Source: Labia minor (taxonomy: Eukaryota; Arthropoda; Insecta; Dermaptera; Spongiphoridae). From it: a stretch of 64,000 nucleotides of DNA. This document shows positions 6,602 through 64,000 of the stretch, piece by piece. The position numbers and the translations under genes are program-made. The notes beneath the pieces were generated by a model. It made no database searches. It had not been told where the DNA came from and saw only the letters and a list, made by a program, of their open reading frames with translations. The stretch lies in contig OY720350.1 in the NCBI GenBank assembly GCA_963082975.1, positions 46,330,734-46,394,733 on the forward strand. The letters run 5' to 3'. Numbering within the stretch: position 1 is the stretch's first letter; each line of letters opens with the position of its first letter.

Positions 6602-7363
6602 CAGGGATGGGCAAACTTTTTTAGGATGCGGTCTACTTCTAATTTTTATACAATAAGTCGGTCCACCAGATATTTATTAAAATAATAATAATAATAAACA
6701 ATGTGGTATAAATGTACATAGGTAACTAAAAAAATAGAATAAGAAAGGAACTTAGGTATATATTTTCAAACAAAATTTAAAGATTATAAAAGTATAAAAA
6801 TATCAAGTTCATAAGAAATATTCTGAATCGAATTATTATTTAAGATAAAGTCATGTGAAATTGTCCGCATTAGAAGATTTACACTGCATATCCTCTGCTA
6901 ATTTAGTAAATCTTGGTGTATAATTACTAACTGCCAGTCTTGTACTGCATTCGAGGTGATTGTCTGTAAGACGGGAGCGATATTTTGATTTAATTATATT
7001 CATCGTAGAAAATGCAGATTCACATAGGTAGGTAGAGCCAAAGAACGATGTTAAATTTAATGCGAGACCTTTTAAATTAGGATACTTAACTTCGTCCATT
7101 AAATTCCAAAAAATATTTGTAGGATCTGAATTATGTGCTTTTAAAATTATGTCATTTTGAAGAAGAAGAACTTCATCTTCCTCAATACTTATAGAAAACA
7201 ATTCGTTTATATTTTTGGTTATTTCTTCCCCGAGTAATGGAATTTTTTATAATTTTTTTGCTAAGGAGTAGTTTAAGTAAAAAAGGCAATGAGTAAAGGC
7301 GATCACTTTAAAATGACTCGGCGGTCCACCAGTCGATCGCGATCGACTTAATGCCCATCTCTG
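6602..7363 (-). mobile_element. Internally deleted hAT transposon with intact ends
   Basis: Ends CAGGGATGGGC and GCCCATCTCTG are flanked by an exact 8-bp duplication TGTTAAAG (6594-6601 and 7364-7371). At 762 bp it keeps only the C-terminal part of a transposase on the minus strand. The BED finger and most of the catalytic core are missing. Confidence 0.9.
6851..7246 (-). pseudogene. hAT transposase C-terminal dimerisation domain
   Basis: The open frame includes YPNLKGLALNLTSFFGSTY, LCESAFSTMNIIKSKYRSRL and TDNHLECSTRLAVSNYTP. These match the hAT family C-terminal dimerisation region (LFGSTYLCE.LFS.MN..KSK.RSRLTD..L). The frame is open to the element interior and ends in a normal stop, but about 500 residues of a full transposase are absent. 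It is a deletion derivative that could only move if supplied with transposase in trans. Confidence 0.85.
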
Positions 7364-8794: not shown

Positions 8795-9789
8795 ATCTAA
8801 TCAAAAACATACCTGTTAAAAAGGGGGCCAAGTTCCTATCGGCTATTTGTTTGCCTAAAAAAGGGTTCAAATCCATCCCAATGCCAAGTTTAGATGCACT
8901 TCAAAATCATTCATAATCATTTTTATCAACAGCCTGATCCACTGGTAAACATTTGGCATTCCAAAGAATCGCCACCACACCCAGTCCTCCGCCTCCTGCA
9001 TCCAGGCACGCCACTTTATTCACGTCAACGGTCCATCTGGCCGAAATTCACTTTACCATACACCCAACTTAAAATATGGTATAGTTGTTAAAATACGTAG
9101 GTACATGGTTTAAAATATCAAAAATTATAATACTTAGAAATTTGAACTTGGCAGGTTTTCGTACTGTACGTAACACTCGTCCCACACCAAGTCCTCCGCC
9201 TCCTGCATCCAGGCACACTAAACGCCACTTTATTCACGTCAACGGTTCATCTTGCCGAAATTCACTTTACCATATACCCAACTTAAAATATGGTATAGTT
9301 GTTAAAATACGTAGGTACTTGGTTTAAAATATCAACAATTTTAATACTTAGAATTAGCAGGTTAATTTATATATTTAAATAATAAATATAATTATACAAT
9401 TAATCTAGTGTTACGTACAGTACGAAAACCTGCCAAGTTCAAATTTCTAAGTATTATAATTTTTGATATTTTAAACCATGTACCTACGTATTTTAACAAC
9501 TATACCATATTTTAAGTTGGGTGTATGGTAAAGTGAATTTCGGCCAGATGGACCGTTGACGTGAATAAAGTGGCGTGCCTGGATGCAGGAGGCGGAGGAC
9601 TGGGTGTGGTGGCGATTCTTTGGAATGCCAAATGTTTACCAGTGGATCAGGCTGTTGATAAAAATGATTATGAATGATTTTGAAGTGCATCTAAACTTGG
9701 CATTGGGATGGATTTGAACCCTTTTTTAGGCAAACAAATAGCCGATAGGAACTTGGCCCCCTTTTTAACAGGTATGTTTTTGATTAGAT
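8795..9789. repeat. 383-bp inverted repeat with a 229-bp loop
   Basis: The left arm 8795-9177 and right arm 9407-9789 are reverse complements. The coordinate sums at both ends of the arms agree (8795+9789 = 9177+9407), so there is no net indel, and the longest 65-residue open frame in each arm is identical. Position 8868 carries a box-B-like GGTTCAAATCC. A transcript across the unit would fold into a long hairpin RNA. It could also be a foldback mobile element, a very recent palindromic duplication or an assembly artefact. Confidence 0.9.
9180..9352 (+). repeat. Diverged direct copy of the arm, inside the hairpin loop
   Basis: This segment repeats 8977-9144 of the left arm in the same orientation, with visible substitutions and a small insertion (CACTAAACGCCAC for CACGCCAC). 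A tandem duplication of the arm sequence therefore pre-dates the inverted duplication. Confidence 0.8.
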
Positions 9790-17508: not shown

Positions 17509-20500
17509 TTAAAAAGAAGCCGTCATCCGATAGAGCCCTGTATAGCCACAGAGACGAGCTCGGAGTGCTGGGAGTAGAAGTGCCGCTGCTGAGAGATTTT
17601 CCAAGAAATTGGAACACTCACAAAGCAGCAGATACATTTTATCTCCGTGGGAGATGCTTTTATGGAGGGTGATCCGTTTGAGGCCAACAGATTTAGGCAA
17701 ATATCGGTAAAGCATCCGAGCACCTTAAAAAAAAAACGAATCATTTTCACATTTTAATTTAATTTCAAATAAAATTATTATTTTATATAATTATATAATA
17801 AAGAATAATAATACAAGCACATCTGATTGGAAATCCCTTTAATTAATAAAAATAAAAAAAATGGTAATTATTTACATCCGAGATAGAAATGATTGTCCCC
17901 AAGAGGGCGATACCTTCAACCAAGCTTGGCTTTAGGTCAAGAGATGGCGCGGCCTTCACCATTGTAATTACCACCAATTAAAATAATTTTTTTGAATGAC
18001 TTTAGTATGAATTTAACTTATTCTAAAATAAAATAAACCGACTGATTTGCAATGTTAAAAAATTAATTCCGCTACTTTCAGCGATTCATCAAGCTGAAAT
18101 TCTATATATAGCAGTTTTATATAATTTTTAATCTGGAAACATAGTAATAAGAAATTACAAAACCAATTTACCTGTCCAATAGAGCCAATTTTGTTCAAAT
18201 TTCTCTCCATCATCGCCTTCAAAGACTTTATAAACAGAAATGATATATCCGGTTGCGGGTGATCGGGGTGGTCGTTTGGCGCCGGGGGTAGCGGCCGCAT
18301 CGAGAGGCGGCCTAGCGATAGTTGCAACTTCGTTGTATAAATCCAGGGTATGCATTGCCGTATACCGAATAGATCTTGGATCGAATTTTCTCAGGGAAGC
18401 TGCAGTTAAGGAGCGATGGAATGCACTAGGGTCGGTCTGTTGTTTGTTGATCACGTAATATGCAATAAAAGGGAATTCAGCTAAAACAAATACAAGTTCT
18501 TTAATTTTCAATTTTTTTTTAAGATTATACTAATATTATATTTGATTTAATGTTGAAATTTTCTAAGTAATTTGACTTTCTCATTTTAAATACTGTGAAT
18601 ATAAGTTTACAACAGAGGTTCTCAAACTGTGATACATGTTATACTCACTGGTGGTACCTTATAGCCTGATAATGGTACAGAACAGTTACTTCTATTAAAG
18701 AAATCATGTTAGTGGTACCTCAACCTTTTGATTGAAATTTCTGTAATACCAACTTGAAAAAGTTTGAAAACCTCTGGTCTTTAAAGAAATGAAACATTTA
18801 ACCTCAATATATTGATTTAACTATGAAATAACTGCTTTTTTTAAATCTCAGTTCAGTTCAACCACTTGGAATCATTCATATGGTGATTATGTTAACAGTT
18901 AATTATGTCAAGAAAAAGTTAAATAAATTATAATTGTTATTCTGTAAAGTTGAAAAAAATGTACCAGTGATTGAGCTACAGTGACGATATACAAATTAGA
19001 AATTTATGAATAAATATCAGCACAAAAATATAATAATAACATATATTAAAATTTTAAAAAATTCTCAAATATTTTTATTTATTGAGAGATATTTACGATC
19101 CCTTTTTGCATTAAAAGAGTTTGAATTCATTTTAAATGAGTGTGAATCATTTATGAATTATGAAATTGAATCTAGATTTAGTCACTTGTGTGAAAGTTTA
19201 TAACCTTATATTATTTATACCATTGGAAATTAAATTAAATTTAATTACAATATGATATTTACGTAAATAATATATCCTATTTCTAAAGATATAAGAAGAA
19301 AAAAGTTTAAATTTTATTAGCCAAACCTTTTAACTTAATTGATATTCGAATTAAGTTTTTGAACATGAAACTTTTTTTTCATTTCATGAATGGTTTTTTT
19401 TCTCATTGCGAGAAAAGTAAATTCTTTTTACTTGAATTAAAAAATTCACTTTCTCATTTATAACAAAAAAAAAAAAAAAGAATCAATACACACTTTGATA
19501 AGGATAAATGATTCAAAAAAAAGTAGAAAAAAAGAATCTATTCTTCACAATCAAAAATATTTCATACTCGAAATAACCTGAATGCTTTTTCTCTTTTTGA
19601 AAGAAATAAAAAGTATATACATATCAAATAGTGTATCCTTTGTAATATTATTTGGATTAGAGGAAAAAAGTTCACATTGAATTCACGTTACCGTTTTTCT
19701 CCATATTGGCAAGGAGCATGCCTTCAATGGCGGTTTTTGCTTCCCCCACCTCATTGAGAAGGGCACAGGCGGCAGTTCGCTGGTCATTTAAAGGCCTCGC
19801 CAAAGGACTTTCAAGCTCTGGTTCGATTGGCTCCAGAGGTGACATCAAATGCAGGAGAACACATAATTTTGGATCTTCTACCTCAAGAACACTAACAGGA
19901 CTTGGACACTTTTCAGCTGGCATCTGAAACATTATCAAATTATATCTATTTTTCACTAAAAATTTACACCTTGAAAAGAGTATAAACAAAATTAAAATGT
20001 ATTACAGGTTGGTTGAAAAGTTTTGAAAACGACATCTGTAATTCAGTAGAAAAATCAAAATTAATACGTGTTACGGATAAAGTATTTATATTTTTATTTA
20101 TTTTTTTTATTATTCAGTTTATTTTGTTTGTCTATTTTTCTTATTATAATTTTGTTTGAATATTTTTCTTATTATATTAACAAAGTTATTTTGTCGCATT
20201 AAGTTTAAAATATAATATATGTATATAGATATAATATTTCGACAAAGGGGAGGAACCATCTCCCTCCAAGTTTTTATATATTTATGAGTTGAGAATTGGC
20301 AGTTGAAAAAGATATATCATCCTGATATGACCTTGTAACTAACACGTCCCGTGATATAATTATTTTTTTTATCATCACACCCTGTGATAACTTTCCTATT
20401 ACTCCCTGTAATAATAGTGAATTACATTATCTTATTTTTTTTTATTTAAATGTCTTATATTTAATGTGTTTAAATTTTTTTTATTAATTAAAGTGTTTTC

Positions 20501-23500
20501 CTTTTCCCTTATTTTTTACCGACCGACGATAGTAAGGGAGGTATTGTTTTCACACCAAATTTCACATGTGGAGATTTTTACATATCTCCACGAATCATGC
20601 ATTTTCTAAACAGAAAAAAGTATTTTTAGCATGATGTCTGTCCGTCCGTCTGTCCGTCTGTCCTTCCGTATAGATGTGTACAGCCTGAACGGCTCAACCG
20701 ATTTTGATGAAATTTGGTATATTTACTTAATGCATCAGTGGGATGAATTGATCAACTTTTGGTGCAAATCCGGAAACCGGAAGTGGTAGTATTAGCGATC
20801 GACGATAGGAAGGGAAGGGTTATTTTCACACCAAATTTCACATGAGGAGATTTTTTTATATATCACCACCAATCATACACTTTGTATTGGTTTTATCCTG
20901 GGGAAAATTATATTTATTAGTTTTTTCTTGATTTAAAATTATATGACGTCATTCAGCCATTCATGACGTCACAGCCTGGTCTTACATATATATTATAAAT
21001 AAAATAAAATTAAAAATATGTATATGTTATATGCCTATCTGTTTTTTATTACATTAATAGATATATTAAAATTATTTGATATTGTTTCTGTAGCTGGAAA
21101 TTAATTTACTTCAAACCGTCGGTCGGTTCGGACCTGGCCACAGGTCAACTTATTTTTTCACCCTTTTGTATTCTGGGATAAAGACAATTTACCCAAAGTC
21201 TGGCGCCCATAATTTACTTATAATACAATTCACAGTCATCGTGGTTCATTACAAGTGCCTCATATTTGGATCCTCTTACAGTTTATTTTTAAAGAACTTA
21301 CTATATAACAGGTGTCATTAAATATCAAAGAATATTAAAATCAAAATATTATAGTATTCGGAATATTGTCCTTTAAACCTATATCATAAAAGGTGACACA
21401 ATTCAATGCATATTTATTATTATTATATTCTCAATGAATAATACATATTATAGAATAAAAACAATACCTTCCTTACTATCGTCGGTCGGTTGTTTATGTT
21501 TAAAATAAAACTGAGAACATATTACTTAATAAATGCAGTTTTTGTTAAAAAATAATATCGTCTAAATGGTGATATTATCTACGATGACATTTCTCTGAAC
21601 GTAAATAGAGATGTATTCTGTAACAACTTTCTTTTGTCAGGCTTACTTAATCGGTTCTCATTGAGCTGAGCAATGTTTTTCAGAGTATTGATTTGACTAT
21701 TCCCGTAAAAAAAGTAAGGAGGCGTCAAGTCTGGACTTCGTAAGGGCATTGGATGTCACCTTTCTTTGAAATTCGTTTGGTTAGGTTAATTTGTCTAACA
21801 TCTGCTAAAGAGTCATTTGACGTTTGAATGGTAGCGCTGTCTTGTCTAAGTCCTTCAATTCTTTATTTTTGAATACTCAAGTCCTGGAGTGTAAAAACAT
21901 ACTAACATCTTTACATCATAGCTATCGGTGTCAACAATGATATTTCACACAAAGCACCAAAAAACACTGCACGACCCTAAAGTAACATGAGCAGCAAACT
22001 CATGATGAGGGATTATTGGATCTGACGTGAAATGGCAGCGATTACATATTATCTTAAGTTTAGAGAAGTTTAGACACGGTATTGCATTATTAACTAATTT
22101 CGTTCTTAGTTTTCTATTTTAGCCATAAATATTAATTTTTTTTGATTTTTTCAAATATACATTCTACTATTGTGCCACCCCTTATATGCTAGTATGTGTC
22201 AAAATAGTTTCAAATATAATTCATAATATGAGTAGTTATAAATGTATATATTTATATATATTTGTTTAGGAAGAGGGAAAATCTTCAAAGGAGTGTATCA
22301 TTTCTTCCTACTAAAAACCTCTTCCCTATTTTTGCCGACCGATGATAGTAAGGGAAGTATTGTTTTCACACCAAATTTCACATGAGGAGATTTTTACAAA
22401 TCTCCACTAATCATGGATTTTCTTAACAGAAAAAAGTATTTTTAGCATAATGTCTGTCCGTCTGTATAGATGTGTACAGCTTGAACGGCTCAACGGATTT
22501 TGATGAAATTTGGTATATTTACTTAATGCATCAGTATGATGAATTGATCAACTTTTGGTGCAAATCCGCACACCGGAAGTGGTAGTATTACAATAGGAAG
22601 GGAAGGGTTATTTTCACACCAAATTTCACATGAGGAGATTTTTTACATATCACCACGAATCATGCACTTTGTATTGGTTTTATCATCTTTTATCAAAAAT
22701 CATCTTTATTAGTTTTTTCTTAATTTAAAATTATATGACGTCATCCAGCCATTCATGACGTCACAGACTGGTCTTACATATATATTATAAATAAAATAAA
22801 ATTAAAAATATTTATGTTCGATCCATATCTGTTTTTTTATTGCATTAATAGATATATTAAAATTATTTGAAATTGTTTCTGTAGCTGGAAATTAATTTAC
22901 TTCAAACCGTCGGTCGGTTCGGACCTGGCCACAGGTCAACTTATTTTTTCTTTATTTTGAAAATCTAATAATCGTTTCTTAATATTTCATCAAGTTTATC
23001 TCCCTTTTTTCAGTGTATTTATATATATAATATGAATATGAATATATATATATATATATATGAATAATTACTTGAATGTTGCAAAGATTATTTAATTTGA
23101 CTGATTTGATTTTTTGTTGGCCAAGAGAAAAATAAATGAGAATCCAGATTGAATTCTTTTACTAATTAGAAGAAATATCGAATGGAGGTCTCTCAAATGA
23201 TCACAGCTGACCCTGCGTTATTAAAACCCCGCGATCTGGCTGCGAGCGACAGATTGTTTCAAACATCGAACAATCACTTTTTCCTTGATCCTCAATCAAA
23301 TTTACTCTGAGCCAGGGGTGGCCAACACGTCGACCGCAAAGGCTTTAAAAGTAGCCCGCGAAGCCAAAGTTGGACAATTTGTTTTAACTTAAATAAATGT
23401 TTGTAATTCTTAATTCTATAATTTAATCTTACAATAATAAATTATTTGTGAAACATACACATAGTTTGGCCACACCTGATATATACAATCATTTATATTC

Positions 23501-26500
23501 TGAAATAATTTTATACAAATGAATATATAATTTTAGCGTTTCTGAAAGTATTCAACTAGAATTTTGTTTACAGAGTCTAAATTTTCACTGCGTAATAACA
23601 GTTTTGACAATGAATTGAAAACATGCATACTTTCCATTTCATGTTTCAACTAGAAGCATCATCCTCAAATTAATTAGAAATGTATTTAATCACTTCCTCT
23701 ATTGTGCGCAATTTGAGATCTCTAGGTAATAGTCTAACAGGTAGATACCGAGGTACCTTAGTTATTATACTCAAGATATTGTTTTGGGTCCGCTGTAATT
23801 TAATTATATTGGATACACTTTAAAATAGATGGAAATCTTTTTTTTTGACAAAAGTAAATATGGTTTTTTACATAATTGTATGATAACTTAACTCACATTC
23901 GATTCGACCATTTTAATATATTAATATTATATAGGAGTTAGAAATTTTCTTATATTAAGAAAGAAGAAGAAATGATGAAGATATCTAATAGTTATATCAG
24001 GTCGAATAATGCACGTGAAAGTAACATTGCAAATTAAATATTTCATAATTGAAAGTGAGAAATTTATATATAATTTACCTGTATATATAATTAATCCCCT
24101 AACTAAGCTTATTTTCTTATTTAAAGAATTGATAAGTGATATTCTTCTTCCTCTAAATAAGGTTGAATTTAAAGATAAAGATCAGAGGGGGACTAGTAAG
24201 GGAACTGATAGAAAAAAGTGAAAAGGTAAAGGAGATGATTTTTCCATGTGAGAGGGAAGGCAGAAAAAACCATGAGCTCACGTGAGGGCACGAACGCCAG
24301 TCCCTGAAATAAAATTCTTTTCTACTGGGATTATAGAAAAGAATCTACCCGTTACCCAGGATATTATTTTTAAATTTATTAAAAATTAATTTTAAAATTT
24401 CATGAAACTTATTCAATTTTTTCTTATTGCTTCATAATATTATATAAAAACAATAAAATCATTTCCTTCCTTTTCAAGTATTTTTTATGTTATTTAATAA
24501 TTAATTTAAATAATATTATATTAAGCTTTATAATTATATTATTAATTAAAAATCTAAAGAATAAAATTATAAAAAATTAACAAATTGAAAGATTTGAACT
24601 CAGACAAAATAATTACTAATCATATACCTATCCGTTGCGACTGTCCTATCAACTAGTAAAAACATAGGAAAGAAATCCACTTGAAGGCTACGAAAATTCA
24701 GTCCATAAGCAATACAAAGCAAAGACTTTATTCATTAAATATTGATTAAACAAAGAAAAATAATCATGGAAATAATTATAATACAAGAAATACAAGAATC
24801 AAAGATAATCTTGTATTGAGAGAAGAGATATGCAAAGAATAATCATTTAATATAATTAATCAAAACATTCGACGTCATTCAACATGGCAGCCGAAATCCC
24901 ATTGCAACTGTCAAAATTCAATAATTAATATTTAATTAAGGAAGCATCATAAAATTATATAATGCTAGTGAAAATGAATCTACATTGAATAACGAGTATT
25001 TTGATATGCGTTTTATATATTGTTATCAGAAAATGTTTATTTCAAGTGTAAACATGATACCAAATAAAAATTAATTATAATTTTCATTTATATTTCACTA
25101 AAAATCCATTTTATTGAAAATCTGGCGAAAATTCTGTTGTATCTTTTTACTTTTATTCATTTTTTATGAAATTTTGTTATTAATTTGTATAAACTGAATC
25201 CAATTGAATAGAAGTGTTTCTGCTAATTTTCCAAATCGTTCTATAAATATGAGTTCCAAGTTTTTACTATTATGAAGCGTAGGAGAGGTGGGTCCTCTCA
25301 GAGGCATATAAGACATGTCTCACTCGTGATTATAAGGGGTTTTGCTAGTCGAAGGGTTGACGTGATCTGGATATATTTGAATAAACCCCCGAAGGGGGTT
25401 TATTCAAATATATATAGGAGACTCTAAAGAGTCTCCTATAAGAGACAAGAATTTCATTTTTTTTTCTTTTTAATGAATCTATGCTAGGTATTCTCCTTCA
25501 TCCAAATAAATTTGATTTTTTGAATGATCAGGGGAGGGGGGGGGAGAGTAAGAGTAAGGGAATGGATGGAAAGGCGTCAATGGGTAAAGGACATGATTCC
25601 TCCAGGTAGAAGAGGGATTTAGAAGAAATCATGAGCTCACGTGAGGGCAGGAACGCCAATCCCTGAAATAGAATTCTTTTCTACTGGTTTTATAGAAAAG
25701 AATCTACTCGCTACCCGGGATATTATTTTTAAATTTATTAAAAAATAATTTTAGATCATAATCATCCTATATGTTATTATATCTTTTATATATACCATAT
25801 ATTTATATTTATATATATTTTTCTTATCCCGATAATTAATATACTTTTTATCCAGGCTTCCCTTTCTCAAAACACCGTTTAGTCCTAGACTACTCTACTC
25901 TACCCAAATTTCGCCTCTTATTTTTACGGTCACTTTAGAGGAAAAATAATCAAAACGTTGTAGGTAATGAACCTCTTCTGGTTGAGCTACATTTCTCAAA
26001 AGTTGATAGAAAACTATGAATTTTGAAATGCCCATGTACCAAATTTCATCATTCTAGCTCAAACCGTTTTTGCGTAATCTTGGTTACATACATACACACA
26101 CACAGACATTTTTCTCAACTTTAGTGAAAATGATTCAGGAACCTTCAAAACGTATAAAAACATCAAAATCTCAACATCGAAAATTTGGCGAGATAGTAAA
26201 AAGAGAAATATTTAAAAATAAGGATAATGATAATGAGAGAGTGAAGTTATATTCAATGTACGGGCAACAGGCAATATCTTTGCTTGGCTAGTCAGGTATA
26301 TTATTTAAAAAAAAATTAAAATTAAAATTTAAAATAAATCTATTTTTTTATAAAAGTTAAATGAGCAAAAGAATATAAACAAAAATTATTTCGTTGATTA
26401 AGAAAGTAAAGCAACGATAAAAAATATAATAAAATAAAAAAATCTTGATTTAAATTTTTTTTCCGATCTGACCTGATTCGCTATTTGCATTTCTATTTTA

Positions 26501-29500
26501 GATTAAACACATCTTTAGGCGTATAATGAATGGGTTTGGGTGTAAAAGTGATGGGAAATGATATCCCGACAAACCCTCAGGAATACTTTGGCACCGGTGA
26601 GTGTTACTCAACAACCATTGATACTATTTTTAAGAGATCTTCAGGGATATAAATCATGAAGTGTCAACATACGTTCTACTCATCGTGGGAATATAAAAAA
26701 AATTATTGACACGTTAAAATTTTCTTCTTTGTCTTCTTAAGCTATTTATTAGCCAGGTGCGTATGTAATGTATATTCGAATATATCCCCTTTTGTAGGAC
26801 TTATTTGTTCAATATTAAACCAAAATTGTCAGACATAATAGCATACTAACATAATTTAATATATCTATTTAGTTGTGATTGAATAGGACTTTTTGAATTC
26901 TAAAATAAAAGATAAAAAAAATAACAAAAAAGAATGATTAATGCTATTAATACTATTTTTGAATCTTGTGAATTTAAAGTTTGATTATTTTATTTAAATA
27001 ATTTTAAATTCTAATTTTAACTAATATTTATTTAATAGTATATATAGGAAAAATATTATATAGTAAAAATAAACTCATTATTATTTGAATTAATTTGGTT
27101 TATATTTAATAGGGCTTTGACCTCTTGATACACCTGGATAATAAATCATTTATTTTGTTAAATTTATTGAAAAAAGAATTCATAGATAACGTAGAAATTA
27201 AAACAACTATTTATATTAGTTTTTTTTTAATATAATAACCTATTAAATAATATTTTAAAAAATTAAAAAGAAAAAAAAAACCGAAAAAAATCTTAAGAAA
27301 AAGTTGTGATTTTAAAAATTAAAAAACTCGACTATCTCGCAAATTTGAATTGGATTAAATTACATAATATTTTATATTTAAATTCAATTTAATTAATTAT
27401 AAATTAAAATTAATAAATAATATTTATTAAACCAGTGCATGTTTGGCTCTTTGTTGATGGCACCACGTCACGTTTTGGCACGTGAGATTTGCAGAGTTAA
27501 AAAATTAATTTTGGTACTTTCAGCGATTCAATCAAGCTGAAATTCTATATATAGCAGTTTTATACAATTTTTATTCATGTGATAAACTATCAAACATATA
27601 TCTTTATTTTTAGAGGAAAAAAAATCAAAACGTTGTAGGTAATGACCCTCTTCCGGGTGAGCTACATTTCTCAAAAGTTGAGAAAAAACTATGAATTTTG
27701 AATAATTCCCGTATACCAAATTTCATTATTCTAGCTCAAACCGTTTTTGCGTAATAACACACACACACAGACATTTTTCCCAACCTTAGTGAAAATGATT
27801 CAGGAACCTTCAAAACGTATAAAAACATCAAAATCTCAACATCGAAAATTTTCGTGATCGCAATACTATCTCTTGCGAGATAGTAAAAATTATGATTTGA
27901 TAAAATATAATATTGTTTAACTTCATTGGATATTAATAGAAGTAAATAAATCCAATTGACAAATAAATAAATGAATATTATTAGAAAATGGTATTTACCG
28001 ACACCCCTGCAGGTAAAAACCGGTCCAGGCTAGCAACAGGAATGATAAAACAATCCCTGTTGAGGGTGGCGAGAGAAACAGGCTCTCCTCGAGCAGCGGG
28101 TGGCGGATGTGAACTATCTGTAGCTGCACCAGGACCGGCAGCTGCAGCTGAAGGGGCTGCTGCTCCATAGGAAGCAGCCACCGCTTGACGGATTCCAGCC
28201 GCGATTCCTGAAGACTCCCGGCCACCGCTGAAGGACACTTGGCGGGAGGCACCAGGCGAATCCTGCGCCTGCAAAATTCAAGCAAACACTTTTTAATAAT
28301 AATAAACTTTTGATTAACAAAATTATCATCATTGTTTTTTTTTATACACTTAATGTTTGTTTTGATGGAATTTTATAATCAAATTTTAACTAACTTACTA
28401 TTAACTAATTGACTATAAATTTTACATACTTTCTTTATAACGATGATCTTACATTAATTTATCTTTAATTCAATAAAAAGTGATAAATTAGTCAAAATTA
28501 ATTAAAAATTTCGATTTATTTTCAAAAGTTTTATGATTTGAATACGAGATGGAGTTACTTGTTATAGAGATTTAGTGTAGTGCTAGATATTTAGTCATAT
28601 CTAAAAATATGTATAGTAAATATGAAATAATCACAAAATACGAGATTAATTCTATAAACGCGATAAACAACATTTCTCACTTTATTCTCTACTTAATTTA
28701 TCCACACATACATATTAGTATTGAATATTTTCTAAATATCTAACTTTTAAAGTTTTTATCACTTATGCCAGAATCGGGTCTCTCCCCCCGCCCTCCCTTT
28801 TATATAAAGTATGTTTTTAAAATCAAATATTTTTTTAAATTTCATTTTAATTTATTTTTCCTCTTAATTAGATTCATCTAATTTCTCGTTGATAGACTAA
28901 TTTCTTGAGTGTTTGCTTTCATTTCCTTTTAAATATCACAAACAAAAAGAAACATCCAACTCTTCTAATTCTAATTAATTATATATATATTAAGAATAAG
29001 AATATAATATAAAATAATAGAAACGGTGGTTTGTTATGTTATATACATACATTAACTTTTTAGATAAATTATTTATTTTGGAAATTTTGTTTTTTTTTAA
29101 ATTTTTAATATGAAAAGTCCACAAAAAAAGTTTTTATTTGTGAATTTATAACTTTCTTCCAAAATTTTAACTTAATAAGTATATATGGTACAGAATGATA
29201 AGTTTAGTAGCTTTTAAAAATCTTTAAATAAATAAAATTTAAATTAAAAATTATAAAATTATAATATTATTTTATCTATGTAGTTTTATATACATTTTTT
29301 GTGGTAAATTATAATAAATAAAAAGCGAGTTTTTAATCAATGATTCATTATTAATTGTTCAATTTATTATGACTAATAGAAAAGAGTTTATATTGGTGAA
29401 ACTATTGAAAAAATTTAAATTCTTTAATGCATAGTATATTTTTGTATTGAAAATTGAATAAATATTTCTCTCATATACAATATGTGCTTGCATGTATCTT

Positions 29501-35100: not shown

Positions 35101-38100
35101 AAATTAAGACAAATAAATTCTTATGTTCTGATATTGAACTGGTCATATTGATTTATTTCATTTATTTTTTTAGACATGTTAGAAATCTACTTTCAATTTC
35201 TAAAAAAACTTCCTTCCTTCAAGGGAATCTTGACTCTATTTCTTTCTTAATGTGGTCAGTCTTCTTGCCCTCCATTTTAGTCACTTTTTATCAAGAGTAC
35301 ATATTCAAATTTCATTTCATTTTTACTATCTCGCCAGAGATAGTATTGCGATAACGAAAATTTTCGATGTTGAGATTTTGATGTTTTTATACGTTTTGAA
35401 GGTTCTTGAATCATTTTCACTAAGGTTGAGAAAAATGTCTATGTGTGTGTGTATGTATGTAACCAAGTTACGCAAAAACGGTTTGAGCTACAATGATGAA
35501 ATTTGGTACATGGGCATTATTCAAAATTCATAGTTTTCTATCCACTTTTGAGAATTGTAGCTCAACCGGAAGAGGGTCATTACCTACAACGTTTTGATTT
35601 TTTTTTCTTCTAAAATGACCGTAAAAATAAAGATATATGTTTGATAATTTTTCACATGATTAAAAATTGTATAAAACTACTATATATAGAATTTCAGCTT
35701 GATTGAATCGGTGAAAGTACCAGAATAACTTTTTTAACACTGTAAATCTTACGCGCCAACACGTGACGTGGTGCCATCAACAAAGATCCAAACATGCGCT
35801 GGTTTAATAAATATTATTTATTAATTTTAATTTATAATTTTTAAGTAATTAAATTTAATTTAAATTAATATATGTTATTTAATCCAATTCAAATTTGCGA
35901 GATAGTCAAGTGGAGACACTCCAGTTTTTTATTTATAGTAAATAATCCTCTTTATCCGTGACGGTTCAAATAGCTCTTAAATTTTCCTTAAATGTTTAAA
36001 TTAATTGAAATGTTCCAAATAAATGGAAATATTTATTTTTAAACTGTATTTGATTATTACATTATTATTAAATATTTATATATATTCAAAATTTTATTTA
36101 TCATTTTCTTTTCTTAATTTATTGGATAATACTTTTCCAGTGGATTCCTTTTACAATTGCAAATAAAATAATATAATAAATAAATAATAAATAATTTAAT
36201 TTAATTTAAATTAATATATGTTATTTAATCTAATTCAAATTTGAGAGATAGCCGAGTGGAGACACTCGAGATTTTTTTATTTGCATTATTTATTTAATGA
36301 TAGGGTATTTAATAAATTTCATATGGATGAATATAAAAGTTCTATTCAAATTCCACACAGTTATTTTATTATTATTATTATTATTATTATTATACATTAT
36401 TATAATTCATATATTCATATATTTAATTTCTTATACCTAAACAATACCTAGTATTTATTAATAAACAAATTTCCTTAGAATATTGAAAATTTTGAAAAAT
36501 AATTTAAATATATATATATATATATACTAATCTATTTTTAAAATCTAAATAAAAAGAGAGAATAAAAATCTTTAATATTATTATTTTTTAATATTTATTA
36601 TATTACTTTAATTTTAATTAATAGATTTATTAAAATAATATTTTACATATAAATACATAAAAAAATTAAAAATATTTAAATGATTAATATATAATAATAA
36701 ACATACTTAAATTTAATCAATAAAAGTATAAATATTTTGTTTTATAAATTTATCAATATTTTTTTACATTTAATTACATTTAATTATATTATTTATTATA
36801 TTATTTTATTATTATTAATAAATCCTAAATATTTGTTATCACGAATTAATTAATTAATGAATTTAAAATGAACTTTTGTCATCTATAATGAAATTTATCA
36901 TTTTTTTAAATTTATTTTTTTAAACCCCATTTAACCATTTATTTTGAAGGTTTATTTATTTTAAGCCAAGCACACCTTCCCTCATTTTTCTCAATGCTAA
37001 AGAAGAGGTGGATTGAGGTAATCCATCTCATTAGGGATTTAAAGCAATTTAAACTCAACGAGAACAGTAATATATTTTATTTATCTGGCAAACAGAGTGT
37101 TTATCAGTTCCCAAGCTTAACGAGATTGTCAAATTAATTCCAACGTTGATAATCTCACTGTGATTATTCCAGATCAGTCAGACATTCATTCATCTCATTT
37201 CGAATAAATGAAATCTCTCAATCTACTATAAAAAGATAAATGAATTTGCAAGTAAAAAAATTCACCTTTTTTAAAAGGATGATTAATTTTCATTCAAGAA
37301 ATAGAAATCTATCTATTATATTATTTAACTAATCGTAATGTTCTAAAATTTGTATCTCAGGACTTGGAAACTAAACTCATTAAATCAATTAATAATATAA
37401 TAATTTTATTGATTAATTGTTCTAAATTTCGTCTAAACTCTCAAGGCCTTTCTCTCTTGTCTTTAAATCATGCGTGCCAAGTCAATTTCCGGCTTTTTAC
37501 TTATCAAAAACACCCTCACCGCCTACAAATCACGCAGCCGTTTAGTCGTGATTTGATCTATTCAAATATCACGTGACGTGTGGGAGTACATGAAATGACT
37601 TCGTGTTTTGGGTCAACTGTATATTCAATGGACCTTTGTCAATAAACAAACAACTAATTTGGATGTACTATATTGTATATTAGAGTTAATTTTGTATAAT
37701 AAACACTTCTATAAATTTTTTACATAAATTTTACAAATTAATTTACCTAATTTTTTTATATTTATGATCGAAATTATAGGTGAAAAATCATCAAGAATTA
37801 GAAAAAAAAACTATAAAAATAATAATGATAATAATATATTATTATTTTATTTATATATATATAATATTATATTTTTTCGTTTAGGTTTCAATAAGTTTTT
37901 ATTATTATGAGAAATTATTTCCAGGTAATTTTCACTTTTAATTGTGAGATTTGGGTCTCAACGTTTCGGCACCCATTTTTCCGTCATTTTCAAGAGAGTT
38001 TATTTAGATAAGAATGTTTTTTTGGAATTCTCGGTCTTGGTCTGTGTGACCAAGATTCGATGTCGGGGGGGAATTTCTGTCTGTCAGTAGCTGACTGACA

Positions 38101-38989
38101 TACATCTGATTTTGATGTCAACTCAGGACCGACCAGTCAGAACTTCGGAACACTGTAAGTCCAAAATCTCCTACTCATTCAATCCAAAACGCCGACATCG
38201 ACTCTTGGTCACACAGACTAAGACCAAAAATCAAAAAAAAAATTCCCTCCTAAATAACCTCTCTTGAAAATGGCGCCAAAATGGGTGTCGAAACTTTGGG
38301 ACCCAAATTTCACAATAAAGCATGAAAATAACCCAGAAATAATTTATCTCATAATAATATTTATAATATTATTAATAAGAAATTATAATATGTATTATTA
38401 TTATTATTATCCGACTTTAGCTCACTTTCTCAGCAAATTGCTGAAAAACTTTCACCCATCCCTTTAGATGTTATATGGGATTGGGCTCGGACGGTGTGGA
38501 GAGAGAATTCACCCTAACCCACACGGATAACCTGTCTCTCAGCTCATCATTAGGAATTTCCGCACTATGTAGCAAGTTTGAAGAATAACAGACTTGTTAA
38601 TCAGTGGTATATGGTCTTCTGAAATTCCCAATATTTTTAAATTTTTCTTCAAATTGTTACTGGAGACACCCTCCACCGAGATAACCCCCGGGGTAATTTT
38701 CACCTCTCCAATCTTCCAGATACGCCTGATTTCCATCGCGAGGTTCTGATATTTATTTATCTTTTCCTTTTCGGTTTTTCGGATGTTATGACTAAGAGGG
38801 ACCGCAATGTCAATCAGATAGGCCCACTTTTCTTTTTTATTTATTAGTAAAATGTCGGGCCTATTATGGTCGCAGGTCTTGTCGGTCAATATCGGGCGGT
38901 CCCAGTATAACACCCATGTGTTATTCTCCAAGACGGGATCAGGGACATACCTGTAGTAGGGGGTGGGGCTAGGAATCAGATGGTGTTGA

Positions 38990-58941: not shown

Positions 58942-59400
58942 CAGGGGTGGCCAACACGTCGACCGCGGTCGACCGGTTGACCGCAAAGGCTTTAAAAGTA
59001 GCCCGCGTAGCCAAAGTTGGACAATTTGTTATAACTTAAATAAATGTTTGAAATTCTTAATTCTATAATTTAATCTTACAATAATAAATTATTTGTGAAA
59101 CATACACATACTGTTTATATTTATCCTGATAAGATAAACAATGTAGTAATACTGAACGCGCTCTGTCGCGCTAGTTGGTAGTTGTGTGGCCGTATGTCTC
59201 AAATTGTTTTTGCTCTGTAGTGAACATAGTCAGGGCGCATATCAGTATCAGTGTGTGTTAGAGCGATTGTAAAGTGACAGCCAGTGAAGTGACAGTCAGT
59301 GATAGAGAACAGAAGTAAGTATGTTAGTTATTGTTTTAAATATTCCGTAATTATATCTTTAGTAGGTAAATTCTAAAATAATATTTAACCCTATTATTTT

Positions 59401-59940
59401 ATAATGAATAATCCAAGTACAAGCCGGAAAAAAACGTATCATTATCACAGTGAATGGAAAGAAGATTATTTCTTTACTATGATGAAAGATATGTAAATGT
59501 ATCTGTTTTATTTGCAATGCAACAGTAGCTTTGTCTAAGAAAGAAAACGTTAAAAGACATTATCTAACAAATTATAAAAATTACGAAGAAGATTATCAAC
59601 GTGGCACTGCGTTAATATAGCAGAATTAGAAGAAGAAATACTTAATATTAAATGCGATATAAATCTAAAATCAATGGTTTCAGATAGCAATTTTTGGAAA
59701 CTAATAAGCAAAGATAAATATTCAAATATGTCGTCAATGGTTGCTCGTTTCAATTCCTTCTTTGGCTCCACATATTTATGTGAATCCGGATTTTCTTATA
59801 TGAATGCGATCAAAACAAAACCTCGTTCGCAAATAACAGATCTACTTTTAGAGTCATGCTTAAGAATTGCTTTAAGTTCATATGAGCCAAATTTTGAGAA
59901 ACTTGCTGGTCTTATGCAATGCCAGGTTTCATCCAAATAA
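59401..59940 (+). pseudogene. hAT transposase remnant: BED finger plus dimerisation domain
   Basis: From ATG at 59404 the reading is MNNPSTSRKKTYHYHSEW, then, across a frame change, FICNATVALSKKENVKRHYL. The latter is a C-x2-C ... H-x-type BED zinc finger. After a deletion, FNSFFGSTYLCESGFSYMNA, KPRSQITDLLLESCLRIALS and YEPNFEKLAGLMQCQ form the C-terminal hAT dimerisation region, with a stop at 59938-59940. The catalytic DDE region is missing. Confidence 0.8.
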
Positions 59941-60041
59941 AAATTGTATGCTTAAAATTTGTTTTGTTCGTATTTATTTCTTAACATTGTATTTATTAAA
60001 ACTTTAATAAATATTGTTAGAATTCATAAAATAAAAAATAT

Positions 60042-60256
60042 ATCGTCGGCTTAGATTGCAAACCTGTTAACTCATATTCAGCATATTTTGCACACCTTTC
60101 TTAAAACGGATAAATTTTTTGCTTGTCACGTGATTTCAATTAAATAGGTGCATAATAGCGGTGTTTCATAGCCAATGTAAGGTGTTTTTCTCCTTCTAAT
60201 AGTGTGATAATGTAATTTTTAACCAAAAGTGGAGGTTTGCAATTTAAATCGGCGAT
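60042..60256. mobile_element. Candidate 215-bp MITE inside the hAT element
   Basis: ATCGTCGGCTTAGATTGCAA at the left is mirrored by GGTTTGCAATTTAAATCGGC and GAT at the right. Superfamily and target duplication are unclear. Confidence 0.45.
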
Positions 60257-60325
60257 ATTAATGACTTCTTTAATTATCTTCTAAAATTTTAAAATTATTT
60301 GCCCATATCCATAGTCGACCGCAGA

Positions 60326-60701
60326 CTATATTTTATTCAAAAAGTAAGCAATGCAGCATTGATATGCTGTCCCCTCCAAGGTTACCGAGAAGCAAAGCAT
60401 TGGAGGCGGGGGCGAAATTTATTAAATATATATAATTAATATGTCAGTAAAAAGTTAAAAATCTATATTTTATAAAATTAAATTTTTATTTGAATCTTTT
60501 CTAAAATTTATTAAACTTCATTTAAATTAATAGGAATAAATAAATTTACAATTAATTCTTGATTGAGGGATGATTTCGGTGGTGACGCCGGTCAACGTCT
60601 TCGACGGGAAAGGGAATGGGTACTGAAATCGCTTGAAGCTGCTCACCGGCAGGCCAGGAGGGAGGGTGGGAGGAAGGTGAGAAGAGGTGGCGGAGGGGGG
60701 C
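60326..60701. other. Spacer with a GC-rich patch
   Basis: CCCCTCCAA and TTGGAGGCGGGG near 60372-60412 can pair. 60580-60700 is GC-rich (GGTGACGCCGGTCAACG, GGGAGGGTGGGAGG). A 70-codon frame here is composition-driven, and no gene is supported. Confidence 0.4.
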
Positions 60702-61714
60702 AACATGGCGGCAAATCTTTTCAATCTGTCAAATTTCAATAATTAATATTTAATCAACGAAGCACCGTAAAATTATATAATAGTAATGAAGATGAATCTA
60801 CGCTTCATGATGAATCTATTCGTATAGGTTTTATCTGTTGTTATGAGGCAAGATTTTTGTTGAACTGTAAAACTAAACCAATATTAAAATTAATTAAAAA
60901 TTTCCATTTAATGATACGAAAAAGCAATTTTATTTAGAATCTGGCTAAAATTATTGTCAATGGATTTGTCTTGGTCACAATTTACAAGATTTAGTCAAAA
61001 ATTTTACTAAAATGAAAACCTTTGATTAGATTGGTTTTTCTAATTTTTCAAAGCGTAATATAAATATGAGTTCCAAGTTTTATACTAATGTGAAGCGTTG
61101 GAGGGGTGGGCCCTCTCAGAGACATATAAGACATGTCTCACTCGTGAATTTACGGGGTTTTGCTTGTCGAAGGGTTGACGTAATCTGGATATATTTGAAT
61201 TAACCCCCGAAGGGGGTTAATTCAAATATATATAGGAGACTCTAAAGAGTCTCCTTTAAGAGACAAGATTTGAATTTTTTTTTCTTTTTAATGAAGCTAT
61301 GCTAGGTATTCTCCTTCATCCAAATAAATTTTATTTTTTGAATGATCAGGAGAGGGGGGGGGGGGAGAGTAAGAGTAAGGGAATGGATGGAAAGGAATCA
61401 ACGGGTAAAGACATGATTCCTCTAGGTAGAAGAGGGAAATCATGGGCTCACGTGAGGGCAGGGACGCCAATCCCTGAAATAGAATTCTTTTCTACTGGGA
61501 TTATAGAAAAGAATCTACTCGCTACCCGGGATATTATTTTTAAATTTATTAAAAAATAATTTTAGATCATAATCATCCTATATGTTATTACATCTTTTAT
61601 ATACCATATATTTATATTTTTCTTATCCCGATAATTTATATACTTTTTATCCAAGGGGTTCCCTTTCTCAAAACACCATTTACTCATAGACTACTCTACC
61701 CAAATTTCGCCTCT
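60702..61714 (+). repeat. Palindrome-bearing repeat family, copy beta
   Basis: Aligns to copy alpha from CAACATGGC onward. The first 300 bp are diverged, while the palindromes and distal part are well conserved. Its first stem has the paired change described under findings. It ends GACTACTCTACCCAAATTTC and GCCTCT, as does alpha. Confidence 0.8.
61189..61255. repeat. Adjacent palindromes in copy beta
   Basis: 20-bp stem 61189-61208 with 61212-61231, loop GAA. Relative to alpha the base at 61201 is T instead of A and its partner at 61219 is A instead of T. The second palindrome, at 61234-61255, is identical to that of alpha. Confidence 0.9.
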
Positions 61715-63058: not shown

Positions 63059-64000
63059 AATAATTAATTTAAATAATATTATATTAAGCTTTATAATTAT
63101 ATTATTAATTAAAAATCTAAAGAATAAAATTATAAAAAATAAACAAATTGAAAGATTTGAACTCAGACAAAAGAATTACTAATCATAGACCTATCCGTTG
63201 CGACTGTGCTATCAACTAGTAAAAACATAGGAAAGAAATCCACTTGAAGGCTACGAAAATTCAGCCCATAAGCAATACATGGCAAAGACTTTATTCATTA
63301 AATATTGATTAAACAAAGAAAAATAATCATGGAAATAATTATAATACAAGAAATACAAGAATCAAAGATAATCTTGTATTGAGAGAAGAGATATGCAAAG
63401 AATAATCATTTAATATAATTAATCAAAACATTCGACGTCATTCAACATGGCAGCCGAAATCACATTGCAACTGTCAAAATTCAATAATTAATATTTAATT
63501 AAGGAAGCATCATAAAATTATATAATGCTAGTGAAAATGAATCTACATTGAATAACGAGTATTTTGATATGCGTTTTATATATTGTTATCAGAAAATGTT
63601 TATTTCAAGTGTAAACATGATACCAAATAAAAATTAATTATAATTTTCATTTATATTTCACTAAAAATCCATTTTATTGAAAATCTGGCGAAAATTCTGT
63701 TGTATCTTTTTACTTTTATTCATTTTTTATGAAATTTTGTTATTAATTTGTATAAACTGAATCCAATTGAATAGAAGTGTTTCTGCTAATTTTCCAAATC
63801 GTTCTATAAATATGAGTTCCAAATTTTTACTAGTATGAAGCGTAGGAGAGGTGGGTCCTCTCAGAGGCACATAGGACATGTCTCACTTGTGAATATACCG
63901 GGTTTTGCTAGTTGGAGAATTGACGTGACCTGGATATATTTGAATAAACCCCCTTCGGGGGTTTATTCAAATATATATAGGAGACTCTAAAGAGTCTCCT
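63059..64000 (+). repeat. Palindrome-bearing repeat family, copy gamma, cut by the window edge
   Basis: 942 bp, the same length as 24496-25437 and nearly identical, including the tRNA-like minus-strand stretch (about 63150-63235) and the CATTCGACGTCATTCAACATGG block. The distal part lies outside the window. Confidence 0.9.
63934..64000. repeat. Adjacent palindromes in copy gamma
   Basis: 20-bp stem 63934-63953 with 63957-63976. The loop is TTC, the reverse complement of the GAA loop in the other copies. The second palindrome, at 63979-64000, is unchanged. Confidence 0.9.

Follow-up and report, generated by a model that had tools for sequence, protein, structure and literature searches.

In coding genes of Saccharomyces cerevisiae, ten spacer inversions have been described across strains, nine of them on arms that were already perfect and some of them recurrent, and in YBZ1 a GAA/TTC flip recurs between 10-bp arms (Abraham and Hazkani-Covo 2021, PMC8604942). 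The palindrome described here resembles these cases in combining homogenisation of the arms with inversion of the spacer, in perfect inverted repeats that are short and closely spaced, and it shares the TTC and GAA spacers. It differs in its setting. The yeast cases belong to protein-coding genes, whereas here one palindrome is carried by hundreds of transposon copies and also shows paired insertions and deletions. Against the ten yeast inversions we count at least eight in 40 scored copies, as well as 15 perfect forms of the stem among 100 listed places.

In rRNA genes, template switching creates and maintains RNA hairpins, with compensatory changes and loop inversions as the result (Monttinen and Loytynoja 2022, PMC8794818). 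In that system, as in ours, compensatory changes and loop inversions can be explained by template switching in DNA. The rRNA loop inversions were rare, six with a compensatory change and 69 alone, which the authors link to conservation of the loop; inverted loops here make up about a third of the copies. In a transposon whose loop is little constrained, one would expect to see the inversions that rRNA conceals.

Plastid genomes contain small hairpin-loop inversions, with segments of 5-50 bp (Kim and Lee 2005, Catalano et al. 2009, as cited in PMC12928735). These too are short segments that flip recurrently between short inverted repeats, but they belong to organelle genomes, and the citing text does not speak of homogenised arms. 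Bacteria and yeast have quasipalindrome correction hotspots, where imperfect inverted repeats are made more perfect by a templated switch (PMC3820800, PMC7202029). The sections of these two papers that we draw on report experimental mutation studies and name neither a transposon family nor standing variation. The mechanism is already published, and the present case is unusually rich in events. A literature search with little coverage of subscription journals found no report of this mechanism in a transposon family.

The palindrome in the window and its host element

The window, by which we mean the whole 64,000-nucleotide stretch that was analysed (G000:C9:46330734-46394733; the genome measures 604 Mb and comprises 71 contigs), is AT-rich and has eight open reading frames of at least 100 aa in 64 kb. 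The genome size and the sparse genes suggest a eukaryote. An earlier note on this DNA had claimed a palindrome at 25371..25413 with a perfect 20-bp stem in three copies, and both direct reading of the sequence and mapping bear this out. The alpha copy of this hairpin (hairpin 1; 25371..25413, + strand) has 20-bp arms around the loop GAA (25391-25393), with a variable pair, which we call N, at 25383/25401. The beta copy (61189..61231, +) also has GAA, and the compensatory change ascribed to it is present: pair N is T-A, with T at 61201 and A at 61219, where alpha has A and T. The gamma copy (63934..63976, +), which extends beyond the end of the window, has A-T at pair N and, again as claimed, the inverted loop TTC where alpha and beta have GAA. 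All three hairpins have 20-bp arms, a 3-nt loop and zero mismatches. Folded with DNA parameters, the 43-mer reaches -18.4 kcal/mol, whereas 200 shuffled versions average -3.81 (sd 1.63); this z of -8.95 rules out a chance palindrome. A search of the window for tRNAs gave zero matches.

Hairpin 1 of the alpha copy is followed by another strong hairpin, hairpin 2, GGAGACTC-TAAA-GAGTCTCC, at 25413..25440 (+), with A/T outer pairs. Three weak hairpins close by served for comparison: hpA (GAGAGG-TGGGT-CCTCTC; 25283..25299, +), hp3, which has a 9-nt loop and a bulge (25670..25705, +), and hp4, which consists of A/T pairs only and has a bulge (25723..25748, +).

The palindrome is internal to a repeat that looks like a hAT DNA transposon, apparently a non-autonomous one, an identity that is new relative to the earlier note. 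The terminal inverted repeats of hAT elements are short and begin with CAGGG. In the shared body of the fetched copies the left end of the family is CAGGGGTGGCCAACACG and the right end GGCCACACCTG, both of this form, and outside them lie exact 8-bp target-site duplications in five elements (L016, L018, L019, L027 and L052) and one with 7 of 8 matching bases in L014. We assign the family to hAT because of these ends and duplications. Paired ends were sought in 58 loci, a few of which overlap, and in the window extended downstream; six passed, in a set whose loci span 3-10 kb each, many being too short for both ends. L022 and L025 have no clear end on one side. The five elements with exact duplications are 2761-5478 bp long, and L018, the longest of them, shows a gap of roughly 1.9 kb relative to other copies, as expected from a nested insertion.

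In the window, the left terminal inverted repeat of the alpha element (CAGGGGTGGCCAACACGTCGACCG) lies at 23313..23336 (+) and that upstream of the beta copy at 58942..58965 (+). Both are exact matches, and the family ends and target duplications add to the case for the first. The left end of the alpha element is thus intact at 23313, and its right side is cut at about 25918, the start of another repeat family. The part that aligns with other fetched copies is 24495..25918 (+), and about half of 20 long loci align with alpha only from about 24880 onward. Neither alpha 23313-25918 nor the beta stretch 58942-61714 has an open reading frame of 100 aa or more, and the family therefore looks non-autonomous. 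We had also considered a tandem repeat or long terminal repeat, as tail fragments recur upstream of a full copy, and, for the hairpin, a Helitron. Both are ruled out by the hAT ends and the 8-bp duplications.

Several neighbouring features touch on this family. A fragment at 6851-7201 (-) matches Pfam Dimer_Tnp_hAT, the C-terminal dimerisation region of the transposase (E 9.4e-07), and it adjoins a degenerate end at 6602-6620 that resembles the right end of the family with 3 substitutions. The whole stretch 6602-7201 (-) is possibly the remnant of an autonomous relative. A direct repeat, 24109-24394 and 25459-25753, about 78% identical, lies upstream of and within the element body, and similar pieces occur upstream of the body in many copies. 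The stretches 25918-26186, 27326-27911 and 35310-35930, among others, belong to a different abundant repeat family with some ten occurrences in the window, in either orientation.

Stem and loop variation among copies

A flank pattern, CTAGGTATTCTCCTTCATCC, has 815 exact matches in the genome, where its reversed control has 0, and both outer 12-bp arms of hairpin 1 are found at 577 places. The first 100 of the 577 places listed are all on contigs C1 and C2, and their outer arms are intact because the search required it. The inner stem is perfectly palindromic in 92 of them. These stems fall into 15 kinds that differ in paired substitutions, in runs of C5 or C6 with a matching G5 or G6, and in paired insertions or deletions; the imperfect eight mostly have unequal C and G runs or a mismatch at the variable pair. 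Pair N, which lies next to GAAT, takes all four Watson-Crick states in these 100 stems: T-A 52, A-T 29, G-C 9 and C-G 8, with one T.T and one A.C.

The loop of hairpin 1 is GAA at 398 places genome-wide and TTC at 183, so that 183 of 581 are inverted, and both loops occur in nine of the 15 perfect stem kinds. Stepwise change between them is unlikely, since all three bases differ and other loops are rare (two TTA and one GGA among the 92 perfect stems). The loop of the shorter hairpin 2 also inverts, with 370 TAAA and 37 TTTA genome-wide (37/407). The copies thus have two features expected of an inverted repeat maintained by template switching, a spacer inverted between unchanged flanks and paired changes that keep the arms identical. 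Two arrangements of linked copies were also seen. Five copies of hairpin 1 stand in tandem at G000:C2:16374845-16381865 with a spacing of about 1.74 kb, four sharing a stem form and GAA and the fifth having a lengthened stem and TTC. L006 (G000:C9:54784376-54784542) carries a head-to-tail duplicated hairpin module.

For closer comparison, 61 candidate copies yielded 51 aligned copies. Hairpin 1 is perfectly paired over 20-21 bp in 43 of the 45 that could be scored, both exceptions being at the variable pair, and is disrupted in the other six. The many unpaired stem substitutions that, according to the earlier note, would tell against a maintained palindrome are thus not seen. Loop and stem frequencies among L001-L028 are biased toward intact alpha-like hairpins, because these loci were mostly picked by similarity to a query containing hairpins 1 and 2. 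The genome-wide loop counts and 30 loci selected by the flank (the first 30 of the 815, all on C1) are free of this bias. Alignment A1, of 41 copies, omits ten of the 51, six for disrupted hairpins and four for aberrant flanks; the four of these ten that have intact hairpins are all perfect. Similarity-chosen copies and the window's own make up 22 of its 41 rows.

In A1, Watson-Crick pairs fill 818 of 820 cells in hairpin 1, 404 of 408 in hairpin 2, 525 of 531 in hp3, 234 of 240 in hpA and 400 of 409 in hp4. Hairpin 1 therefore has 2 non-Watson-Crick cells in 820, against 25 in 1588 (6 of them G-T) for its four shorter or weaker neighbours (Fisher p 0.0019, or 0.019 with G-T counted as paired, 41 rows), in a comparison that omits copies whose hairpin 1 is disrupted. 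Restricted to the 19 rows that were selected by flank only, the corresponding figures are 1/380 and 13/738 (p 0.043, or 0.11 with G-T as paired), and in this unbiased subset the contrast is only modest. The covariation score of the 41 copies, whose hairpin is intact by choice, is 0.074, against 0.014 (sd 0.004) for shuffled alignments, and 0 of 500 shuffles reach it; four pairs show changes in both arms. With the partner slid along, the score never exceeds 0.012. Because shuffles take no account of how the copies are related, the slides and the adjacent hairpins serve better as controls.

Recurrence of the changes was assessed on a tree built from flanks only, with the hairpins excluded (45 copies after six of the 51 were omitted for aberrant flanks; 794 columns; 16 of 42 inner branches well supported). 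The loop of hairpin 1 has changed at least eight times among 40 scored copies, ten inverted and 30 not, with the one TTA loop (L041) counted as TTC. The stem form has 21 changes, the length of the C run ten and the loop of hairpin 2 four. Pair N has 14, or at least 13 with Watson-Crick states only, which rules it out as a mere subfamily marker, and at least nine of its changes cross between purine-first and pyrimidine-first states, a step that G-U intermediates cannot bridge. Nine flank sites with 8-12 minor copies have 4.1 changes on average and never more than 6. At the five sites with 13-14 minor copies the counts are 6, 7, 9, 8 and 8, a range that overlaps the eight changes of the loop, so the loop stands out only moderately. 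It carries little phylogenetic signal, as 104 of 500 shuffles of its labels give eight changes or fewer (mean 9.2). Close relatives can differ in orientation: loop 1 differs between alpha and gamma at a flank distance of 1.6% and between L029 and L030 at 2.3%, and loop 2 differs between L005 and L011 at 0.25%. The average flank site has 1.01 changes on the tree. The flanks beside hairpins 1 and 2 (25320-25368 and 25440-25456) have about twice that average, a pattern compatible with local mutagenesis or with alignment problems but proof of neither.

Disrupted copies have a pattern of their own. Of the 30 flank-pattern places that head the list of 815, 22 retain both arms, with perfect pairing in 21, and eight are disrupted. 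Five of these eight (L044, L045, L046, L049 and L052) keep the left arm to or through the loop and have lost the right arm; L032 and L051 have lost all or nearly all of the hairpin, and L042 lacks the left arm. Breakpoints at the apex would fit a template that is folded during DNA synthesis.

Probable arm copying and loop inversion, and the alternatives

The variation is probably the result of recurrent copying from arm to arm and inversion of the loop, mediated by the hairpin in DNA, with polymerase template switching as the most likely agent. On copying, a single strand would fold into the 20-bp hairpin with its 3-nt loop, and the nascent strand would sometimes be templated by the opposite arm. 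Were the copying confined to the arm, a mutation in one arm would be either erased or written into the other, and the palindrome would stay perfect while its sequence could drift. Copying that ran through the loop would leave it inverted, from GAA to TTC or back, and a switch without a proper return would skip the second arm and leave a deletion from the loop onward. We infer that this happens in copies that are already inserted. Recurrent loop inversions, paired changes in the arms, paired insertions and deletions, and deletions that start at the loop all give good support to the involvement of a DNA hairpin, which was among the readings that the earlier note had offered. That note had also offered selection on a hairpin. 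Selection on an RNA hairpin fails as a source of the loop inversions; selection on the sequence of the arms may still act.

Under selection for a functional RNA or DNA hairpin, such as a transcript that is processed or a structure that binds a protein and is required for mobility, compensatory substitutions would restore pairing. This would suit the 16 of 20 stem pairs that are invariant in 41 copies whose flanks average one change per site, and the outer arm ATATATTTGAAT, which has changed in just one of the 41 copies and there in both arms. Such selection leaves reverse-complement loops unexplained, and a structured RNA would be expected to conserve the orientation of a loop that here is inverted at 183 of 581 places. 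Nor could the nine or more crossings at pair N pass through G-U. The 820 cells of hairpin 1 contain no G-U, which is a weak argument as only two cells are mismatched at all, and a search of the window against Rfam at the gathering threshold gave zero matches. As the explanation of the whole pattern, such selection is quite unlikely. An artefact of assembly or sequencing is very improbable. Hairpins and C/G runs are hard for some sequencing chemistries, and the states described here are known from the assembly alone, but most changes of run length affect the two arms jointly, four pair states are each seen repeatedly in the 100 listed stems, and the two loops turn up again and again, at hundreds of places spread over several contigs.

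Extrusion of a cruciform is a serious rival, even if we think it unlikely. Mismatch repair within the extruded hairpins would then homogenise the arms, and the loop would be inverted when the four-way junction is cut and rejoined. It predicts perfect arms and inverted loops just as template switching does, and a 20-bp arm with a 3-nt loop is a good candidate structure. The conversion through a cruciform that the earlier note proposed cannot be separated from template switching at replication by sequence alone. Extrusion on its own, however, does not predict the one-arm deletions to or through the loop seen in five of the eight disrupted copies, which bear only indirectly on a dependence on replication or polymerase switching. 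We infer polymerase template switching as the agent in preference to cruciform resolution or repair. The shuffling of a few old loop and stem forms by exchange between copies, through gene conversion and possibly through inverted alignment by way of the palindrome, is quite unlikely to account for the pattern. It would draw on the homoplasy of the flanks, with its mean of 4.1 changes at sites with 8-12 minor copies and 6-9 at those with 13-14, and on copies that lie near each other and in a local tandem array. Yet the eight changes of the loop exceed those of all nine flank sites of similar frequency, the paired stem forms found once each among the 41 copies (L047, L054 and L056) need paired events to arise, and exchange does not alone keep the arms matched. 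Exchange probably does occur to some degree, as the flank sites with 6-9 changes mean that either it or poor resolution of the tree makes some contribution.

Template switching in its simplest form does not fit everything. If copying from arm to arm were neutral, each pair would be expected to change roughly as often as a flank site does. The 45-copy tree leaves 431 of 792 flank sites (54%) without any change, against the 16 invariant pairs of 20 (binomial p 0.017). The changes of pair N, in turn, exceed those of every flank site (maximum 12). We do not accept purely neutral copying as a full account given this invariance. With 16 of 20 pairs fixed and one hypervariable, there is a hotspot at N and probably constraint elsewhere. 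Either the arms are constrained in sequence, as a palindrome bound by a protein could be, or mutations concentrate strongly at the position of N. It is conceivable, though a long shot, that the palindrome is functional in the transposon and that the flip and the rewriting of the arms are coupled to its life cycle, for example through gap repair that copies across the hairpin after excision. Every mobilisation could then flip the loop and alter a single dedicated base pair, and a molecular record of these events would remain.

Covarying base pairs are standard evidence for a conserved RNA structure. If our reading is right, a mutational process can imitate this evidence, and matched changes need not mean that a working RNA is preserved. 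Here an apparently non-coding stretch of a transposon combines strong covariation with loop inversions that selection on RNA cannot make. With hundreds of copies and adjacent hairpins of differing length, the rates of copying and flipping could be measured in one genome as a function of stem and loop length, against the flanks.

The window holds some further features. An open reading frame at 18155-18511 (-) matches Pfam DUF7153 (E 9.6e-21) and is likely a piece of protein-coding sequence. Self-complementarity is found at 8795-9177 against 9789-9407 (100% match), and in 9182-9609 and 37900-38359, each against its own reverse complement (83% and 74%). The self-complementary stretches 8795-9789 and 37900-38359 are probably foldback-type elements.
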